Source: Iphinoe sp. HA4291-MV1 (GTDB lineage: Bacteria > Cyanobacteriota > Cyanobacteriia > Cyanobacteriales > Nostocaceae). From it: a stretch of 64,000 nt of DNA. The stretch is taken from the NCBI GenBank assembly GCA_019359415.1, contig JAHHHH010000001.1, positions 186,001 to 250,000 of the forward strand, given 5' to 3'. This document shows, in pieces, positions 41,282 to 58,049 of the stretch. The notes under the pieces are model-generated. The model saw only the letters and a list, made by a program, of their open reading frames with translations, ran no database searches and was not told the DNA's origin. The first letter of the stretch is position 1, and each line of letters begins with the position of its first letter. The position numbers were made by a program, and so were the translations under genes.

Positions 41282-41373
41282 CAATACTGCTCGGATAAGC
41301 AAAAATTAGAAACCCGGTTTCTTAAAGAAACCGGGTTTCTGGCACCTCAACTATTCTTAACCGAGCAGTATTG
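41282..41373. mobile_element. 92-base MITE with internal hairpin and 10-base flanking duplication
   Basis: The terminal inverted repeats CAATACTGCTCGGATAAG and CTTAACCGAGCAGTATTG match at 17 of 18 positions. The centre is a palindrome AAACCCGGTTTCTT/AAGAAACCGGGTTT. CCTCCCTACC flanks both sides directly (41272-41281 and 41374-41383), as expected for a target-site duplication. Confidence 0.8.
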
Positions 41374-41409: not shown

Positions 41410-42795
41410 TTACTTACGTTTAGTGAACAGCCATCCCAAAATGATGAACCCTAAAGTAGCGACAATACTCAAAAACAAGGATGCATAAAATGGATGGGGT
41501 GGGTTGTTGGGAGATATCGCAGTTAGGGGTTGGTTGATTTTGTCAATATTTTGGACGACTACACCAGAAACAATTGCACCGCCACCAAAGCCTATTCCTA
41601 ATACTTGAATTGTACGTTCTAAAGAGCGATCGCTCTCGGCTTGCTATGTTTCTACAATACCTCGGATAGTGTCAACAATCTGTCCAAATAATTCTTGAGC
41701 AGGAGAAAGATAATTAATATCTGTTTGTATTTGTTCCTGAAATTTTTTACAGTCTTTGTTTAGAAAATTATGCCATAATTGAGGACTATTCCCACCGCCA
41801 ATAGCTGTGATTTCATCCAAGCAAGTTTTGTAATTAGTAATATTTGTGTTAATGCTCATTTGATGCGTTTGTAAATCTTGAAGACATCTTGTGTAATCAA
41901 GTTTGTTCTGAGGTATTTCTGCCAGTAATTTTTTTAAGTCAGATATTGGTGTTTGGGTTTTAGATATCAGGTTGTTAAATTCTTGGATCTTTTTTTCTAA
42001 ATAACTGTAAATTGCTCTAGCTTCTCCATAGCGTTGACGTGCTTGATGATAAATATAAAGGATTTTATGGTACGAGCAAAGTAAATTGAGCAACCAGTCA
42101 TAAGCATTTTCGGCAAGCTGTATCGTGGGAGACTGACTATTATTGATAACTATGAAAATCTGACATTGTTTAGTAGGGTTCTCTGGTTCACTAGGGTTAG
42201 TTGCTTGGTATTCAAATAACAGACTTCCAAAAAGTTCTCCCTGATTTATCTGCACAGGGTTTAAATTTGTGCTTGCAACTAAAGCGGTTGCAAACTTATT
42301 AGCCAGTACATTACAGTTTTCATTTGGATCTACTTCACCGTAAATCCATAAAGTTTGTCCTAAAGATGCTTGAATATGAGATGGTAGTAAGCAACTTGGG
42401 TGAAAATGTTGCAGTTGTGGGACATCAATCGAGATGTTTGGTGATTCTGGCGAAAGAGTGAAATCAGCTACGTAGGTGTCATTCAGTAAAAAAGGTTGAA
42501 GATTAGCATTAATTTTAAAACCATCTGTTGTTGCGAGACTCCCTAAATCTAAATCTCCAACATCCGTTAACCATTCGGTTTGTCTTCCTTGCTCGCGCTT
42601 GGGTTGGTATACACCATTTTGATAGCAAATTAATTTTGCTCGTAAATCCTTCAATCCAACCAAAAGAAGAGAATGTTCACCCAATTTTGCGAGATTTTCC
42701 CATAAGAGATTAGCATCTACAACCACTTCTCCAGGAGCATCAGTGAGAGTATGACGCAGATGAAAAGCATAGAGGCTAATGGTGAAGTTCTTCAC
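41410..42795 (-). pseudogene. CHAT-operon membrane protein, interrupted by an in-frame TAG
   Basis: The first 383 codons (to TAG at 41644-41646) encode a soluble protein. Its C-terminal third is helical and probably coiled coil (YSYLEKKIQEFNNLISK...). Reading on in the same frame gives 77 more residues to TAA at 41410-41412, including two transmembrane helices (TIQVLGIGFGGGAIVSGVVV and FLSIVATLGFIILGWLF) and a basic C-terminus. The coherent hydrophobic continuation shows that the TAG interrupts a gene of about 461 codons. It is either a nonsense mutation or a leaky stop. No family is recognised for the N-terminal part. The start overlaps the preceding 125-residue gene by ATGA. Coupling with a CHAT protease gene suggests a protease-controlled membrane effector, which is inference. 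Confidence 0.8.
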
Positions 42796-43169
42796 TGTTT
42801 TTGGTTGTTTTTTGTGTTGTCTAATAAGGGAGAGTTCTTTTTAATAGCGTTGTCTAAGAGTTGCTTTAAAAATGGACTAGGTTGATTGGCTGGAGTTGGG
42901 GATTTACTACCTCCCATTCCCAAATTGACATCTAAATCGATAGGGTTTGAAGAAATGAGTAATTCTAATTCCTTGCTGTAAGCTTGTAAAATTTGACGAC
43001 GAGATTCTGGTTGCAACCAATTTTCAATTCTTTCTGCAATTTCCTCCTTATCTTCTGATAAATTACCAGAAAGTTGATGGAGTTTAGCCCAATCGTTAGT
43101 AGAAATCACATGAGATTGAGATTCAATGACTTTAATGAAAGCTTGGATGTTATTGTCATAAATAGACAT
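42792..43169 (-). CDS. Small hypothetical protein in the CHAT operon
   Basis: 125 residues, acidic helical N-terminal two thirds (FIKVIESQSHVISTNDWAKL and KEEIAERIENWLQPESRRQI) and a flexible C-terminal tail rich in N, S, P and K. No family recognised. A Shine-Dalgarno-like AAAGGAG stands about ten bases before the ATG, just after the CHAT gene's stop. The gene overlaps the following membrane-protein gene by four bases, so the three genes form one operon. Size and position suggest an adaptor, regulator or substrate of the CHAT protease; that is inference. This is the only gene of the three that is still intact. Confidence 0.7.
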   Translation of the reverse strand: MSIYDNNIQAFIKVIESQSHVISTNDWAKLHQLSGNLSEDKEEIAERIENWLQPESRRQILQAYSKELELLISSNPIDLDVNLGMGGSKSPTPANQPSPFLKQLLDNAIKKNSPLLDNTKNNQKQ

Positions 43170-43819
43170 TGTTTAAACTCCTTTACCTATGGCACAAAAA
43201 GCAGACCAATAATAAGGCGATTCAAAGGGTTTATAAGTTGTACCTTTATCTATCTCAATTTCATTAAAGTATTTATCCAGTTCTATCTGCCAAACCAAAC
43301 TTAGTGGTGACTTACTCAGCCAATCTCGAAATCCTTTGACTGTCGCATCTCTTAACCAACGTTGCGCTGTATTTAAAGCTAATGTAATATTACTTTGCTA
43401 CTGTAATTCTTCGTAAAATTTCATCATCAATAAAGCGGTAGCTGTCGCACTCACAGCCCAGAAGCTACTAACCACATTGGTACTACCAGCTAAGAGAAAA
43501 CCACTGGGCAAACCAATATATTCATCACTCGCATTTTGGAAGTCTGTTAAACCAGTTTCGCAAGCTGAAAGAGTGACTAAGCGACAGTTTTCTAGCTTGA
43601 GGTGAGCAATGATATCTGTCAATGTGAGGCTTTCGTCTGCTAAATCTAATCCAGAATCTAGGGGAGAAGAAGGATTAAAGTAACCGTGACAGAAGAAAAA
43701 GATACAGTTAGCCTGGAGTAATTTTTCATGTATCGTCACATTGTTAGGATTTTCATCAAAGCCAAGAATCGCTGATTTTGTCGCTTCAGCTTGCTTTAAA
43801 ATATAAGCATTAGCAAACT

Positions 43820-44031
43820 CAGTAGACCGAAAAGATTTCTAGAAGGCTTACCATTGGGGCATTCTGGCGGATTGTATACAATCCGCCAGAATGCCCGTAT
43901 CATCTGCGTTTTGAGCAATAGGGTTGTAGATGAGTTCTCCTGCTAAGGTAAGCGATCGCTCGACCCTGTGCCCAAAACATCGCCCCAAACCCTCATTCTT
44001 GCGTTGACTGACAAAAGTTTTCGGTCTACTG
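43820..44031. mobile_element. 212-base MITE inserted in the CHAT gene
   Basis: The perfect terminal inverted repeats CAGTAGACCGAAAA and TTTTCGGTCTACTG are flanked by the direct repeat AAACT (43815-43819 and 44032-44036). The element holds a perfect 40-base palindrome (43857-43896) and no transposase. Excising the element and one AAACT restores the CHAT reading frame exactly, which proves insertion. Confidence 0.93.
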
Positions 44032-45661
44032 AAACTGTTTCTTGATAGCTGCAACTCCTCCTAAATCCTTTTCGTAGCCTTGATATAAGTCTTCTGTGGG
44101 GTTTTGGATGGCAAACAGAGATTGAAAATCAGAGCATTGACGAAGTTGTAATTGTTGCAGCAATTGACAACTAGGGGCATAACCTACACCATTGGGAAAT
44201 AAGTCAAGTAGATATGATTCTCCTACAGGTAAAGCATGGAGAGGAAACAGGTGTAAAGAGCGATGGGGAATGAGGATTAATCTGTTGCAGTGTTTGGGTA
44301 TATAGGCTAATATTTCTTCTATATGTAGAATTTGTGCTAATTTTTTTAGGCGTTCTTCTAGCTGATTTTGCCATTGATGGTTTTGGTTATTTTCTTTATT
44401 TTTGGCGTAGTCCCTGATATATTCAACTTGCCAATCAATGAGGGAAGTTAAGTCTTCTGGTTGAGATTGTAAGAAATTTACTTCTTGCCCGTTAGGCTGG
44501 ATAACAAAGGTGAAAATTCTCTCTCTAGCGATATACCATTCTATAATTGCTGTGTTGTTATTCAAAGTTGCTTGGAATAGGTCAAAATTGAAGCCAGAAC
44601 CAATAGGCAAGTATTGGTCTTGTAATTCTTGGCGTTTGTTTCGTAACTCTTGAAGATATTGGGCTAGGGCTGTTGGATTTTCAGCTTTGCCATTTTGGAG
44701 TTGATACTGACTGATCGCTATTTCGTCTCGCAGTTGTTCTAGTTGAGTAACAACCTGTTGAGGGAAGAAGGTTTTAAGATCACGGTTGAGGATAAGTTCA
44801 ACTAAGTTACGGGTTTTACTACGCTCAACGTATTCAATCGCTTCCTTAATGTTGCCCAATTTTAGGCAAACCTCTACCATGCGTCTATAAAGTTTGTGCC
44901 ATGCTTCTGCTTGTTTACGCTTTGCCTCATCATCAGAAACAATTTCTGCTTGCAAAGATTCCACTGTTTTTATGGATGCAGCCAACTTAGTGTAAGCTAA
45001 ATCAAATTGATTTGCTTCTTGGTAGACAATACCCAGCATGAATAAAGTTTCGATATATTCGTAAGGAAAAACAGTGCGGGTGTAAACTTCCAGTACAGCA
45101 GTATAAGCAGTTATCGCTCGTTCTAAATTCTCAGCTTTATCTCCTCTGATTCTGTAAAAGTAAGCAGCACCCAGATTAGATTGCGTCATTGCCCAATCAT
45201 CTGGAAAGGCGCTACGGGTAGAAACTTCCAGTGCAGCAGTATAAGCAGCGATCGCTCGTTCTAAATTTTCGGCTTCATCACCCAATATTCTGTCACAGTA
45301 AGCAACTCCCAGGTTATGTTGCGTCATTGCCCATTTTTGGGGAAAAACGTTGCGGGTGTAAACTTCCATTGCGACAGAAAAAGCTGCGATCGCCCGTTCT
45401 ATATTCTCAGATTTCTCTCCCCTGATTCTTTCACAGTAAGCATTGCCTTGATTATTTTGCGTATCTGCCCAATCTTTGGGAAAAGCGTTGCGGGTGTAAA
45501 CTTTCAGTGCGGCAGTATAAGCTGCGATCGCAAGTTCTATATTCTCGGCTTTCTCTCCTCTGATTCTGTGACGGTAAGCATTCCCCAGATTATGTTGCGT
45601 CATTGCCCATTGTTGGGGAAAGGCGTTGCAGGTATAAATTTCCATTGCGACAGAAAAAGCT

Positions 45662-46213
45662 GCGATCGCTTGTTCAATATTCTCGGCTTTATCTCCCCTG
45701 ATTCTGTCACCGTAAGCAACCCCCAGATTCATTTGCGCCATTGCCCAATCATAAGGAAAGGCATTGCGGGTGTAAACTTTTAGTGCGGCAGTGCAACTAA
45801 CAATAACCATTTCTATATTCTCGGCTTTATCTCCCCTGATTCTTTTACAGTAAGCAACCCCCAGATTCATTTGCGTTTGTGCCCAATTTTGGGGAAAGGC
45901 TTTGCGGGTATTAACTTCTAGTGCAGCAGTATAAGCAGCGATCGCTTGTTCAATATTCTCGGCTTTATCTCCCCTGATTCTGTCACCGTAAGCAACCCCC
46001 AGATTCATTTGCGCCATTGCCCAATCATAAGGAAAGGCATTGCGGGTGTAAACTTTTAGTGCGGCAGTGCAACTAACAATAACCATTTCTATATTCTCGG
46101 CTTTATCTCCCCTGATTCTTTTACAGTAAGCAACCCCCAGATTCATTTGCGTTTGTGCCCAATTTTGGGGAAAGGCTTTGCGGGTATTAACTTCTAGTGC
46201 AGCAGTATAAGCA
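45662..46213 (-). repeat. Perfect 276-base tandem duplication of two TPR units
   Basis: 45662-45937 and 45938-46213 appear identical base for base. Each holds two 138-base units, that is two TPRs of 46 residues. The other TPR units in the gene are clearly diverged, so this duplication is recent or kept uniform by gene conversion. Confidence 0.88.
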
Positions 46214-46420
46214 GCGATCGCTTGCTCTATATTTTCGGCTCTATCTATTACTATCTGCTGTTGCTTGCAGTACATCTAGTAAAAATTGCTCATAAGCCTC
46301 TAAATCTCGCGAGGTGACAGAGAAAAGTTTTTTACGTTTTCGAGCTTTTTGCGAGGGGAAATTGAGCGCCGCACTGAGTTGACTAGCCAAATTCCGTAGG
46401 CAATTTCCTATTCGCCGCAT

Positions 46421-46794
46421 TGTGATTCTCTCTCCCGCACTTGCACAAAGCCATATCAAGCAATTCAGTAGTAGCTGATAAAATCGCTGGTTATTCCCCT
46501 AATGGGGAATTAGCAGACTTTCAATCAGTTGGTAATCAGTCGGCGCTATTTGTTCATGGGCGTCCGTGAGAGGCTAAGGTTTTAGCACTTTTGTCAAAAG
46601 TAATATTACTTAAATATACTCTTGGAAAGAAGCGATATGACATCAATCTAAGTACTAATGCAAAATTAAATATACATTTGTCATTGCGAATGGAGCGTTC
46701 GCCCTTCTCCCAAAGGGAGAGGCTAGCGCCAAGGCGTTCTCGTTCGCCGTTAGGCGTTCCGTTCGCAATGATATAAATAATTTTGCGTAACCAC
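46421..46794. other. 374-base intergenic region
   Basis: Upstream of the CHAT operon. It holds the interspersed segment shared with 35687-35725 (46562-46600) and a MITE-like element (46677-46774). The CHAT operon promoter is expected near 46430-46550, but no clear boxes were identified. Confidence 0.6.
46677..46774. mobile_element. MITE-like element related to 40694-40851
   Basis: The left end TTGTCATTGCGAATGGAGCG is inverted at the right as CGTTCCGTTCGCAATGAT. The interior consists of GC-rich palindromes. It abuts the stop codon of the HEAT-like secreted protein. Confidence 0.65.
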
Positions 46795-57239: not shown

Positions 57240-57383
57240 GGGAAGTAAGCTCCGGAAGAGTTTTCCTGTGCAGGTGAGGTGGTATTGGGGTTTGCCTCGT
57301 GGAGTGCAAGTGGCGTTGCTTATCGACAGTATGAATTGAATTTTGCGCAGAGACAACAGAGGCGCACCAGAGTTAGTGTTTGA

Positions 57384-58049
57384 ATTCAGCAACGCTACGT
57401 CTCAGCTACCAAGGCTTTGGTTGTAGGGAACCCCGTGATACCTTCCAAAGTAAAAGTTTATGTAGATGTTCCTGGAGGAAAAACAGATTATGTGGATTTA
57501 CCCGATCTACCCAGTGCAGAAAAAGAAGCAAAAGCAGTGGCTCAATTGCTAAACACAGAAGCTATTGTTGGTAAGCAAGCAACCGAGTCTCTGGTAGTTA
57601 AGGAAATGCAGCAAGCGAAAATTATCCATCTTGCTACTCACGGAATTTTAAGAGCTAACGCACTTATTTTCACTACTTTAGGAGAAAATAAACAAGATGA
57701 CAATCCAGATGATGGATTACTCAATGTGCATGAAATTGCCAATCTAGATTTAAATAATGCAGAATTAGTTGTCCTTAGTGCTTGTGAAACTGGATTAGGT
57801 TACATTGGCACTGAGGGAGTGATTGGCTTAGTTCTTCCCTTCTTGGGAAGTGGTGTCCCTAGTGTAGTAGTCTCACTTTGGTTGATTCCAGATTCTCCCA
57901 CTTCAGAGTTGATGGTCGATTTTTACAAGAACCTCAAATCAAATCCTGACAAAGCGCAAGCCTTACGTCAGGCAATGCTGACAACGATGAAAAAGCATCC
58001 CGATCCAGTTAACTGGGCAGCTTTTACTTTAGTTGGTGAGGCACAGTAG
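57384..58049 (+). pseudogene. 5'-truncated CHAT protease fragment
   Basis: The open frame (stop at 57381-57383, so no upstream extension) encodes the last 220 or so residues of a CHAT protein. It begins inside the domain at ATKALVVGNPVIPS and carries catalytic His in IIHLATHG, Cys in LSACETG and the C-terminal NWAAFTLVGEAQ. The N-terminal regulatory region normally present (TPRs or other) is missing. The only starts are non-ATG (TTG at 57417). It is either a truncated relic or a minimal CHAT protein, and I favour relic. It sits 65 bases before a Ser/Thr kinase gene, a common pairing in cyanobacteria. Confidence 0.75.

Follow-up and report, generated by a model that had tools for sequence, protein, structure and literature searches.

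The window analysed here, a stretch of 64,000 nucleotides from the cyanobacterium Iphinoe sp. HA4291-MV1, carries on its minus strand, in this order, a TPR-CHAT gene, a gene for a 125-residue protein and a third gene, as originally predicted. The CHAT gene is recovered in several pieces, and those of the CHAT domain match the CHAT peptidase model PF12770. Its N-terminal helical region is a frame-broken fragment (46247..46534) that intact relatives pick up in tblastn at 36-41% identity (E 9e-8 to 5e-6). An ORF of 749 residues (44026..46275; ORF, Pfam and tblastn evidence) holds the TPR array and the first part of the CHAT domain, matching Pfam TPR_10, TPR_12 and the N-terminal part of CHAT. Repeat analysis delimits a tandem repeat at 45075..46246, with a 138-bp unit (46 residues) present in 8.5 copies with 78% matches. 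The second part of the CHAT domain, including the His and Cys motifs, extends over 43398..43838 (Pfam CHAT over 43401-43838, E 1.4e-28), and a C-terminal tail was identified at 43173..43397 from the ORF list and tblastn. The small gene (42792..43169) encodes a helical domain, a linker and a C-terminal motif. The third gene starts with a GTG codon at 42795 and has the predicted plan of a soluble domain, a coiled coil and two hydrophobic segments at the C-terminus; from the model of an intact relative, its soluble domain, of alpha/beta type, and its coiled coil were placed at 41644..42795, and both membrane segments lie at 41410..41643. The genes are tightly packed: a GGAG lies within the final CHAT codons just 5' of the small gene ATG. 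As predicted, the third gene begins inside the second, with 4 nucleotides in common, although the shared letters are GTGA and not ATGA.

The genes are not as originally described: both the CHAT gene and the third gene are broken and the 125-residue gene alone is whole. The N-terminal CHAT fragment (46534-46247) lies in another frame than the TPR-CHAT ORF (46275-44026), and residues found between these two regions in relatives are missing in the window. A MITE-like insert of 214 bp (43819..44032), bounded by 20-nucleotide terminal inverted repeats that are 90% complementary, splits the CHAT domain. The first 20 or so nucleotides of the second CHAT-domain part belong to this insert. The element occupies at least 40 full-length, 100% identical places in the genome, the window site counted, which is a lower bound because 40 of 97 candidates were scored. 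The remainder of the CHAT domain ends at an in-frame TAG (43398-43400), past which the tail (43397-43173) continues the frame unchanged. Likewise, the supposed 461-residue protein consists of 383 codons, a TAG at 41644-41646, and 77 further codons that hold both membrane segments. The window locus is a broken relic of a proposed receptor-protease operon. With its frame broken once, a MITE inserted and two stops in frame, it is very probably just what is left of a pseudogene, without function today in this genome. Against this, the two TAG codons may be sequencing or assembly errors, and the whole small gene could still serve a second, distant copy of the operon on contig C103 of this genome, whose frames are uninterrupted and whose third protein is about 30% identical. 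The pseudogene reading is limited to the window copy and does not compete with readings of the family.

Comparison with relatives shows that the three genes truly belong together. A same-strand CHAT gene lies upstream in 88 of the 106 distinct membrane-protein homologues with at least 2.5 kb of upstream sequence and downstream in 0 of 113, so that the association goes beyond chance, and natural fusions occur among the partners. The operon would have been accidental, according to the original prediction, if homologues of the partners occurred mostly without CHAT genes; these 88 distinct cases show the opposite. The small gene, separate or fused, is present at 89/106 third-gene loci, CHAT and small genes are both present at 80/106, neither is found at 9/106, and 18/106 have no recognised upstream CHAT. 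Among 54 small-protein matches from 60 genomes, 7 have no adjoining third gene, and some of these stand beside unrelated genes. Judging from these sequences, the operon is conserved across many cyanobacteria. Its distribution is patchy (36 of 292 genomes), and it is carried by 13 plasmid records, several from the same strains, 12 of which are typed as mobilizable or conjugative. Tolypothrix PCC 7601 and 7712 are among the strains with plasmid copies. It has no fixed genomic place: the window outside the operon shares only short matching stretches with the fetched loci, apart from L045, where three stretches are 65-70% identical to the window sequence between 2.1 and 5.7 kb. Among the matches listed, no Pfam family had hits in more than two proteins of either partner family. 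Both families are annotated "hypothetical protein" in public plasmid records. The suggestion that the set is not a described system agrees with our search, in which no description of it was found among openly licensed papers.

The catalytic residues were followed in an alignment of 114 domain rows, for which 101 paired CHAT ORFs were the source. The catalytic Cys is present in 100/100, and the His in 95/96, of the rows having a residue in that column. The strongest result concerns the TPR arm. Of 80 distinct operon CHATs, 65 carry tandem near-identical TPR units, with a median of 87% matches and up to 32.5 copies; the other 15 show no array. By comparison, among the 13 further CHATs that the window's genome encodes, 3 have arrays. 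The variability of the units is not special to the operon, because variable-unit arrays also occur in CHATs outside it. In our own alignment, the differences between units cluster at positions that are ligand-facing in TPRs, the published ligand-face positions (PMC1261162) having been compared with the hot positions by eye. The held-out dN/dS over 41 proteins was 2.13 (1.50-2.76) at six hot positions versus 0.38 (0.29-0.45) elsewhere, values that recombination among units can disturb and that come from related, non-independent proteins. In comparisons of orthologous operons, 7 out of 7 have 0 identical units in common, including operons whose membrane proteins are 95-97% identical. The operon CHATs combine repeats that are nearly identical with positively selected ligand-face positions, compared by eye, which is the pattern of NLR-like receptors with highly conserved repeats and the way in which fungal non-self receptors evolve. 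A NACHT or NB-ARC domain (STAND NTPase) was not found by Pfam scan in the CHAT pieces of the window.

The small protein is fused to CHAT in 5 ORFs and to the membrane protein at L116 and L046, and its domain is also fused to DUF2887 proteins. Of 101 distinct small proteins, 28 contain an LxNAI motif and 62 a looser pattern; the motif may serve in binding, in cleavage, or in neither. Comparison by sequence with solved structures gave nothing better than E 0.29.

For the third protein, the predicted structure of an intact relative (pLDDT 89) shows a head, then a stalk and then a pair of membrane helices at the C-terminus, and two hydrophobic segments are present in 98 of 127 homologues. Searching solved structures by sequence returned coiled-coil or chance matches only (best E 0.0045), and Foldseek comparisons established no known pore fold. 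Matches to alpha-pore-forming toxins of the ClyA/HBL/Nhe type were obtained with Pfam HBL (E 0.0037, 17.6 bits, under the cut-off of 29.1), NCBIfam NheC (4 of 36 members, best E 0.00018) and ClyA (Foldseek probability 0.82, E 0.44), all of which coiled coils alone could produce. Gasdermin is absent among the 50 Foldseek matches and 25 Pfam families listed. In a viral structure library the protein had no match at E 0.001, a phage Mg2+ transporter standing at rank 3, and no match was found in 50,697 phage records.

The conserved gene set, the catalytic residues, the hypervariable array with its selected positions, the adaptor-like fusions and the predicted membrane plan support a module composed of a receptor-protease, an adaptor and a membrane effector, a reading to which we give an even chance. 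In the CHAT protein, the TPR solenoid would be the receptor; its units would undergo copying and exchange and would diverge at the positions facing the ligand, which would therefore be something variable or non-self. Its binding would be the trigger that turns on the C-terminal caspase-like CHAT protease. The small protein, with its helical domain and conserved C-terminal stretch, would act as an adaptor joining the protease to its client. This client, and putative substrate, would be the third protein, with a cytoplasmic alpha/beta head, a three-helix stalk and a two-helix membrane hairpin. We infer that proteolysis runs in this direction and that the membrane protein becomes active through the protease: once the head is cut or released, the hairpin would open or leak the membrane, and the cell would be killed or arrested. 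Seen as a whole, the operon resembles an alarm of bacteria for self/non-self recognition or infection.

A stricter version, compatible with the receptor-protease, adaptor and effector reading, would make the operon an anti-phage abortive-infection system whose TPR arm senses a phage protein. The protease-effector layout, the hypervariable ligand face, the plasmid carriage and the patchy presence speak for it. To look at the genomic context, 112 flanking ORFs drawn at random from 343 candidates, with no more than 2 taken from any of 65 loci, were scanned with PADLOC and Pfam at E 1e-10. In this sample, which has no control set, the Pfam families are mostly ordinary and defence-family matches are scattered and mostly single: mad2 in 4 ORFs, mad3 in 3, 2OG and mad8 in 2 each, and the other PADLOC families (25 listed of 47) in 1 each, including TnsC, TniQ, a type II REase, reverse transcriptases and Cas1. 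These mostly ordinary flanks give no clear defence-island signal but speak neither for nor against such an island; within that limit they weigh against the anti-phage version, as does PADLOC on the operon itself, which gives only weak BovA matches to the CHAT part and has no model that convincingly matches the small or third protein. We regard this version as possible but doubtful.

Somewhat less probable is that the third protein serves as a membrane anchor or docking platform, to which the small protein tethers TPR-CHAT while the protease cuts other cell proteins. The predicted structure, with its conserved soluble head and long stalk, would suit such a role, and the small domain, which occurs in fusions with CHAT as well as with the third protein, may be no more than a tether between the two. 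However, the model has a stalk helix of 65 residues running into the membrane, which would be little expected for a mere anchor. It is improbable that the third protein forms an ion channel of the CorA/Mrs2 type through which the operon controls ion homeostasis by proteolysis: no Foldseek match reached E 0.001 (best E 0.007), designed three-helix bundles outscored CorA in a second structural look where CorA was not above background, hhalign against 30 cyanobacterial CorA proteins gave a probability of 0.27% (E 0.22), the GMN motif is present in 0/127 third proteins, and a housekeeping role would leave the hypervariable receptor units unexplained. The common plan, with a head and a stalk followed by a C-terminal membrane helix pair, and a weak whole-chain Foldseek match are kept as a resemblance only, homology to CorA (PF01544) having failed on profile comparison and on the GMN motif. 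The head fold is not clearly alike, and its order of strands and helices differs from that of CorA.

Among known systems, the ternary layout with a caspase-type protease recalls CATRA (PF20269, PF20270, PF20271), which may include a small protein, as the Pfam name CATASP suggests. The founding CATRA paper is reportedly that of Burroughs and Aravind in 2020. The Pfam models CATRA-N, CATRA-C and CATASP have no match at E 1 on the operon in the window's genome, and CATRA-N was found in 0 of 386 cyanobacterial genomes, a search in which the controls likewise had no match. CATRA is named as a caspase-dependent conflict system in PMC8195603. Concerted evolution and positive selection on the ligand face are described in PMC4986451 for fungal NLRs with highly conserved TPR, ANK or WD repeats. 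The operon CHATs share with these NLRs near-identical repeats, varying repeat number, concerted evolution and ligand-face positive selection, but differ by their protease output, their bacterial host and the lack of a reported NACHT or NB-ARC in the CHAT pieces of the window. Craspase, the type III-E CRISPR TPR-CHAT protease acting with Csx30, resembles the proposed module in being a TPR-CHAT protease that has a partner protein as substrate; here, the small and third proteins have no Pfam relation to the named partners, and the TPR array is hypervariable. The peptidase-based ternary systems of multicellular bacteria (VMAP, iSTAND, EACC1; PMC7159879) have the same logic of protease, adaptor and effector, the same kind of host and adaptor domains fused to varied enzymes, whereas Pfam scans of the three-gene set gave no MoxR, vWA, VMAP or STAND.

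A more detailed form of the receptor-protease and effector reading, which we hold to be speculative and rather unlikely as a whole, would see in the operon a filamentous cyanobacterial counterpart of fungal allorecognition. The TPR receptor protease would renew its contacts by unit exchange and diversifying selection, share its adaptor module with other enzymes, and open a dedicated two-helix, possibly CorA-like channel; one cell of the filament would then be killed, and infected or non-kin cells thereby removed. If the module itself is real, multicellular bacteria would possess a receptor that is encoded in the germline, evolves fast and is linked directly to a protease and a membrane effector, that is, the innate-immunity logic of animals, plants and fungi without an NTPase switch. 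It would also provide a function for two families that plasmid records now label as hypothetical. The set is present on plasmids of cultured filamentous strains.

Third-gene neighbourhoods were compared in 60 fetched loci, picked on score and sequence length from about 100 matches, and in a further 80 named loci, retained out of 86 that a third-protein pattern search turned up; dropping identical proteins left 130 distinct third proteins. Among the 106 third genes with at least 2.5 kb of upstream sequence, 88 have a same-strand CHAT gene within 3.5 kb upstream, which goes against the refuting case named originally, homologues mostly lacking CHAT genes. For 89 of these genes the small protein is present, either free or as part of a fusion; both partners are present in 80 cases and neither in 9, while a CHAT gene downstream was found in 0 of 113 distinct cases. 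The overlap between small and third genes is exactly 4 nt in 30/105 cases, and the two are spaced by 20 nt or less in 60/105.

Third-protein relatives occur in 39 of the 60 genomes around the window and in 36 of 292 cyanobacterial genomes (profile, E 1e-10), its own genome counted both times. Most named loci belong to Nostoc, Calothrix, Scytonema, Moorena, Planktothrix, Microcoleus and other genera, which we take to be filamentous; outside cyanobacteria, two Desulfobacterota and two Parabeggiatoa MAGs carry one. Thirteen plasmid records, including several cases of one plasmid in sister strains, hold a relative, and 12 were typed as mobilizable or conjugative. On plasmids of Nostoc sp. C052 and Tolypothrix PCC 7712, both partners are annotated "hypothetical protein" and adjoin a CHAT or TPR protein. 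The order is reversed on one Pseudanabaena plasmid, the small-third pair standing before the CHAT gene.

The window's own set lies on the minus strand as originally described, but its genes are not intact: the small gene alone is whole. What remains of the CHAT gene is an N-terminal fragment and a TPR-CHAT stretch out of frame with it, followed by a MITE-like insert and a C-terminal stretch that a TAG interrupts; another TAG interrupts the third gene immediately 5' of the membrane segments. The 214-bp insert (43819-44032) contains a perfect 40-bp palindrome. At least 40 full-length identical copies, the window's included, were found in this genome among 97 candidates, which suggests recent activity of the element. 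A repeat of about 92 bp (41282-41373) just downstream of the operon is 98.9% identical to a stretch in locus L049 that lies near the second operon of this genome. This 7.4-Mb genome has 30 CHAT matches; one of them (57321-58040, plus strand) has an internal TGA and is probably another broken gene. The operon of a Brasilonema angustatum MAG, a relative of the window's genus, is damaged differently: a 508-aa TPR ORF (L105:6478-8004) directly precedes an uninterrupted third gene, and its C-terminal end looks like that of the small protein, the CHAT domain between being absent.

In an alignment of 114 CHAT domain rows from 101 ORFs, the catalytic Cys is kept in 100/100 and the His in 95/96 rows having a residue at that column. 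Tandem DNA arrays (period of at least 90 bp) are found in 65 of 80 distinct paired CHATs of at least 600 aa, with 1.8 to 32.5 copies, a median match of 87% and most commonly a 138-bp period (38/65). We collected 487 ungapped 46-codon units from 62 of the 80 proteins. Comparisons were confined to pairs within a single protein that are 80-99% identical, of which 41 proteins supplied three or more. Changes concentrate at positions 26, 29, 36, 39 and 40; positions 3, 5 and 15 hardly change. For six hot codons, 36 of 41 proteins have pN above pS, against 3 of 41 for the remaining codons, a circular count as the codons were picked from the same data. To remove the circularity, six positions were picked from a random half of the proteins and dN/dS was measured in the other half, over 200 runs: the held-out mean was 2.13 (1.50-2.76) at picked positions versus 0.38 (0.29-0.45) elsewhere. 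Positions 29, 36, 39 and 40 were picked in all 200 runs, 26 in 199 and 18 in 170. In a by-eye alignment to the canonical TPR (NLGNAY at positions 6-11), unit positions 29, 36, 39 and 40 correspond to TPR 2, 9, 12 and 13, 26 falls at 33/34 of the preceding repeat, and 18 lies in the other helix. According to Magliery and Regan (PMC1261162), TPR 2, 5, 9, 12, 13, 33 and 34 are the most variable positions, all on the concave ligand-binding face; such variability is therefore shared by TPRs in general. The distinguishing feature of these arrays is that dN/dS exceeds 1 between nearly identical units within a single gene.

The arrays also differ between orthologues. At loci L093, L096 and L030, third proteins are 95-97% and CHAT tails 96-98% identical, and the arrays of 9, 4 and 9 units share no identical unit. 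No unit was common to both orthologues in 7/7 comparisons; in five, the units of each orthologue were closest to others in the same array, and in two (L096/L030, L095/L099) this held for one orthologue only. For fungal NLR repeats, PMC4986451 describes the same pattern: repeats conserved within a gene, a changing repeat number and positive selection.

The small protein has a near-invariant Trp and, close to its C-terminus, a near-invariant Asn (40 aligned sequences); at E 0.1 any one Pfam family was hit by at most 2 of 30 members, and a PDB search found no relative. It is fused to CHAT in five ORFs and to the third protein at L116 and L046. It also forms the C-terminus of DUF2887 proteins (L146:6874-7998, L207:6837-7967 and, by likeness, L135:2515-3696), the L146 fusion gene standing between CHAT and third genes. 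Seven of its 54 matches (in 32/60 genomes) have no nearby third gene by coordinates compared by eye, nor did a profile search of those neighbourhoods find one. L207 is among the seven; neighbours are a CHAT gene at L209, a subtilase at L204 and otherwise ordinary genes. At L204, a single case, the homologue lies directly downstream of the subtilase (Peptidase S8) instead of a CHAT gene (L204:6970-9072). The fusions and these solitary copies suit a putative adaptor domain.

Among 36 members of the third-protein family, each Pfam family was hit by 2 at most (E 0.1). An AlphaFold2 model of the uninterrupted relative at L166 (460 aa, 56 sequences; pLDDT 89, pTM 0.81) comprises a head (1-233), three helices (234-280, 286-334, 341-405), a region of low confidence (399-430) and a terminal helix (436-459). 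CorA tops its Foldseek list without reaching E 0.001, and further tests did not carry the relationship. Among 127 homologues, 98 have two hydrophobic segments, 16 three and 13 one; 234 of the 257 segments lie within the last 110 residues.

Taken together as a module, the CHAT protein would be a receptor-protease acting through the small protein, a candidate adaptor, on the third protein as membrane effector; we hold this reading in even balance, its biochemical steps being putative. A strictly anti-phage system is possible though rather unlikely. That the third protein, with its C-terminal hydrophobic segments, is an anchor instead of an effector seems unlikely, and a role of the operon in ion homeostasis very improbable. 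Some of these alternatives (anchor, ion homeostasis, strict anti-phage) overlap with the receptor-protease model. Of the named systems, CATRA, a ternary conflict system with a caspase-type protease, comes closest in layout; its Pfam models gave no match to the operon in a scan of the window's genome at Pfam sensitivity. Adaptor-protease conflict systems of multicellular bacteria other than this set are described in PMC7159879, PMC8195603 and PMC10907252.

Outside the operon, arrays occur in 3/13 CHAT ORFs of at least 500 aa from the sections of the window's genome that were scanned. The three lie next to one another on contig C88 (L241:3010-16028), with near-identical 120-bp TPR units that vary, by eye, at like positions; the trait is thus wider than the three-gene set. 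In the fetched loci, 2/11 other CHAT ORFs have arrays, one being the window's own gene, in a tally that counts two genes twice from a contig fetched twice. At L120, a 2196-aa ORF with CHAT, NACHT and HEAT-like regions (L120:3-6593) lies some 1.4 kb upstream of a small-third pair that lacks a CHAT gene of its own.
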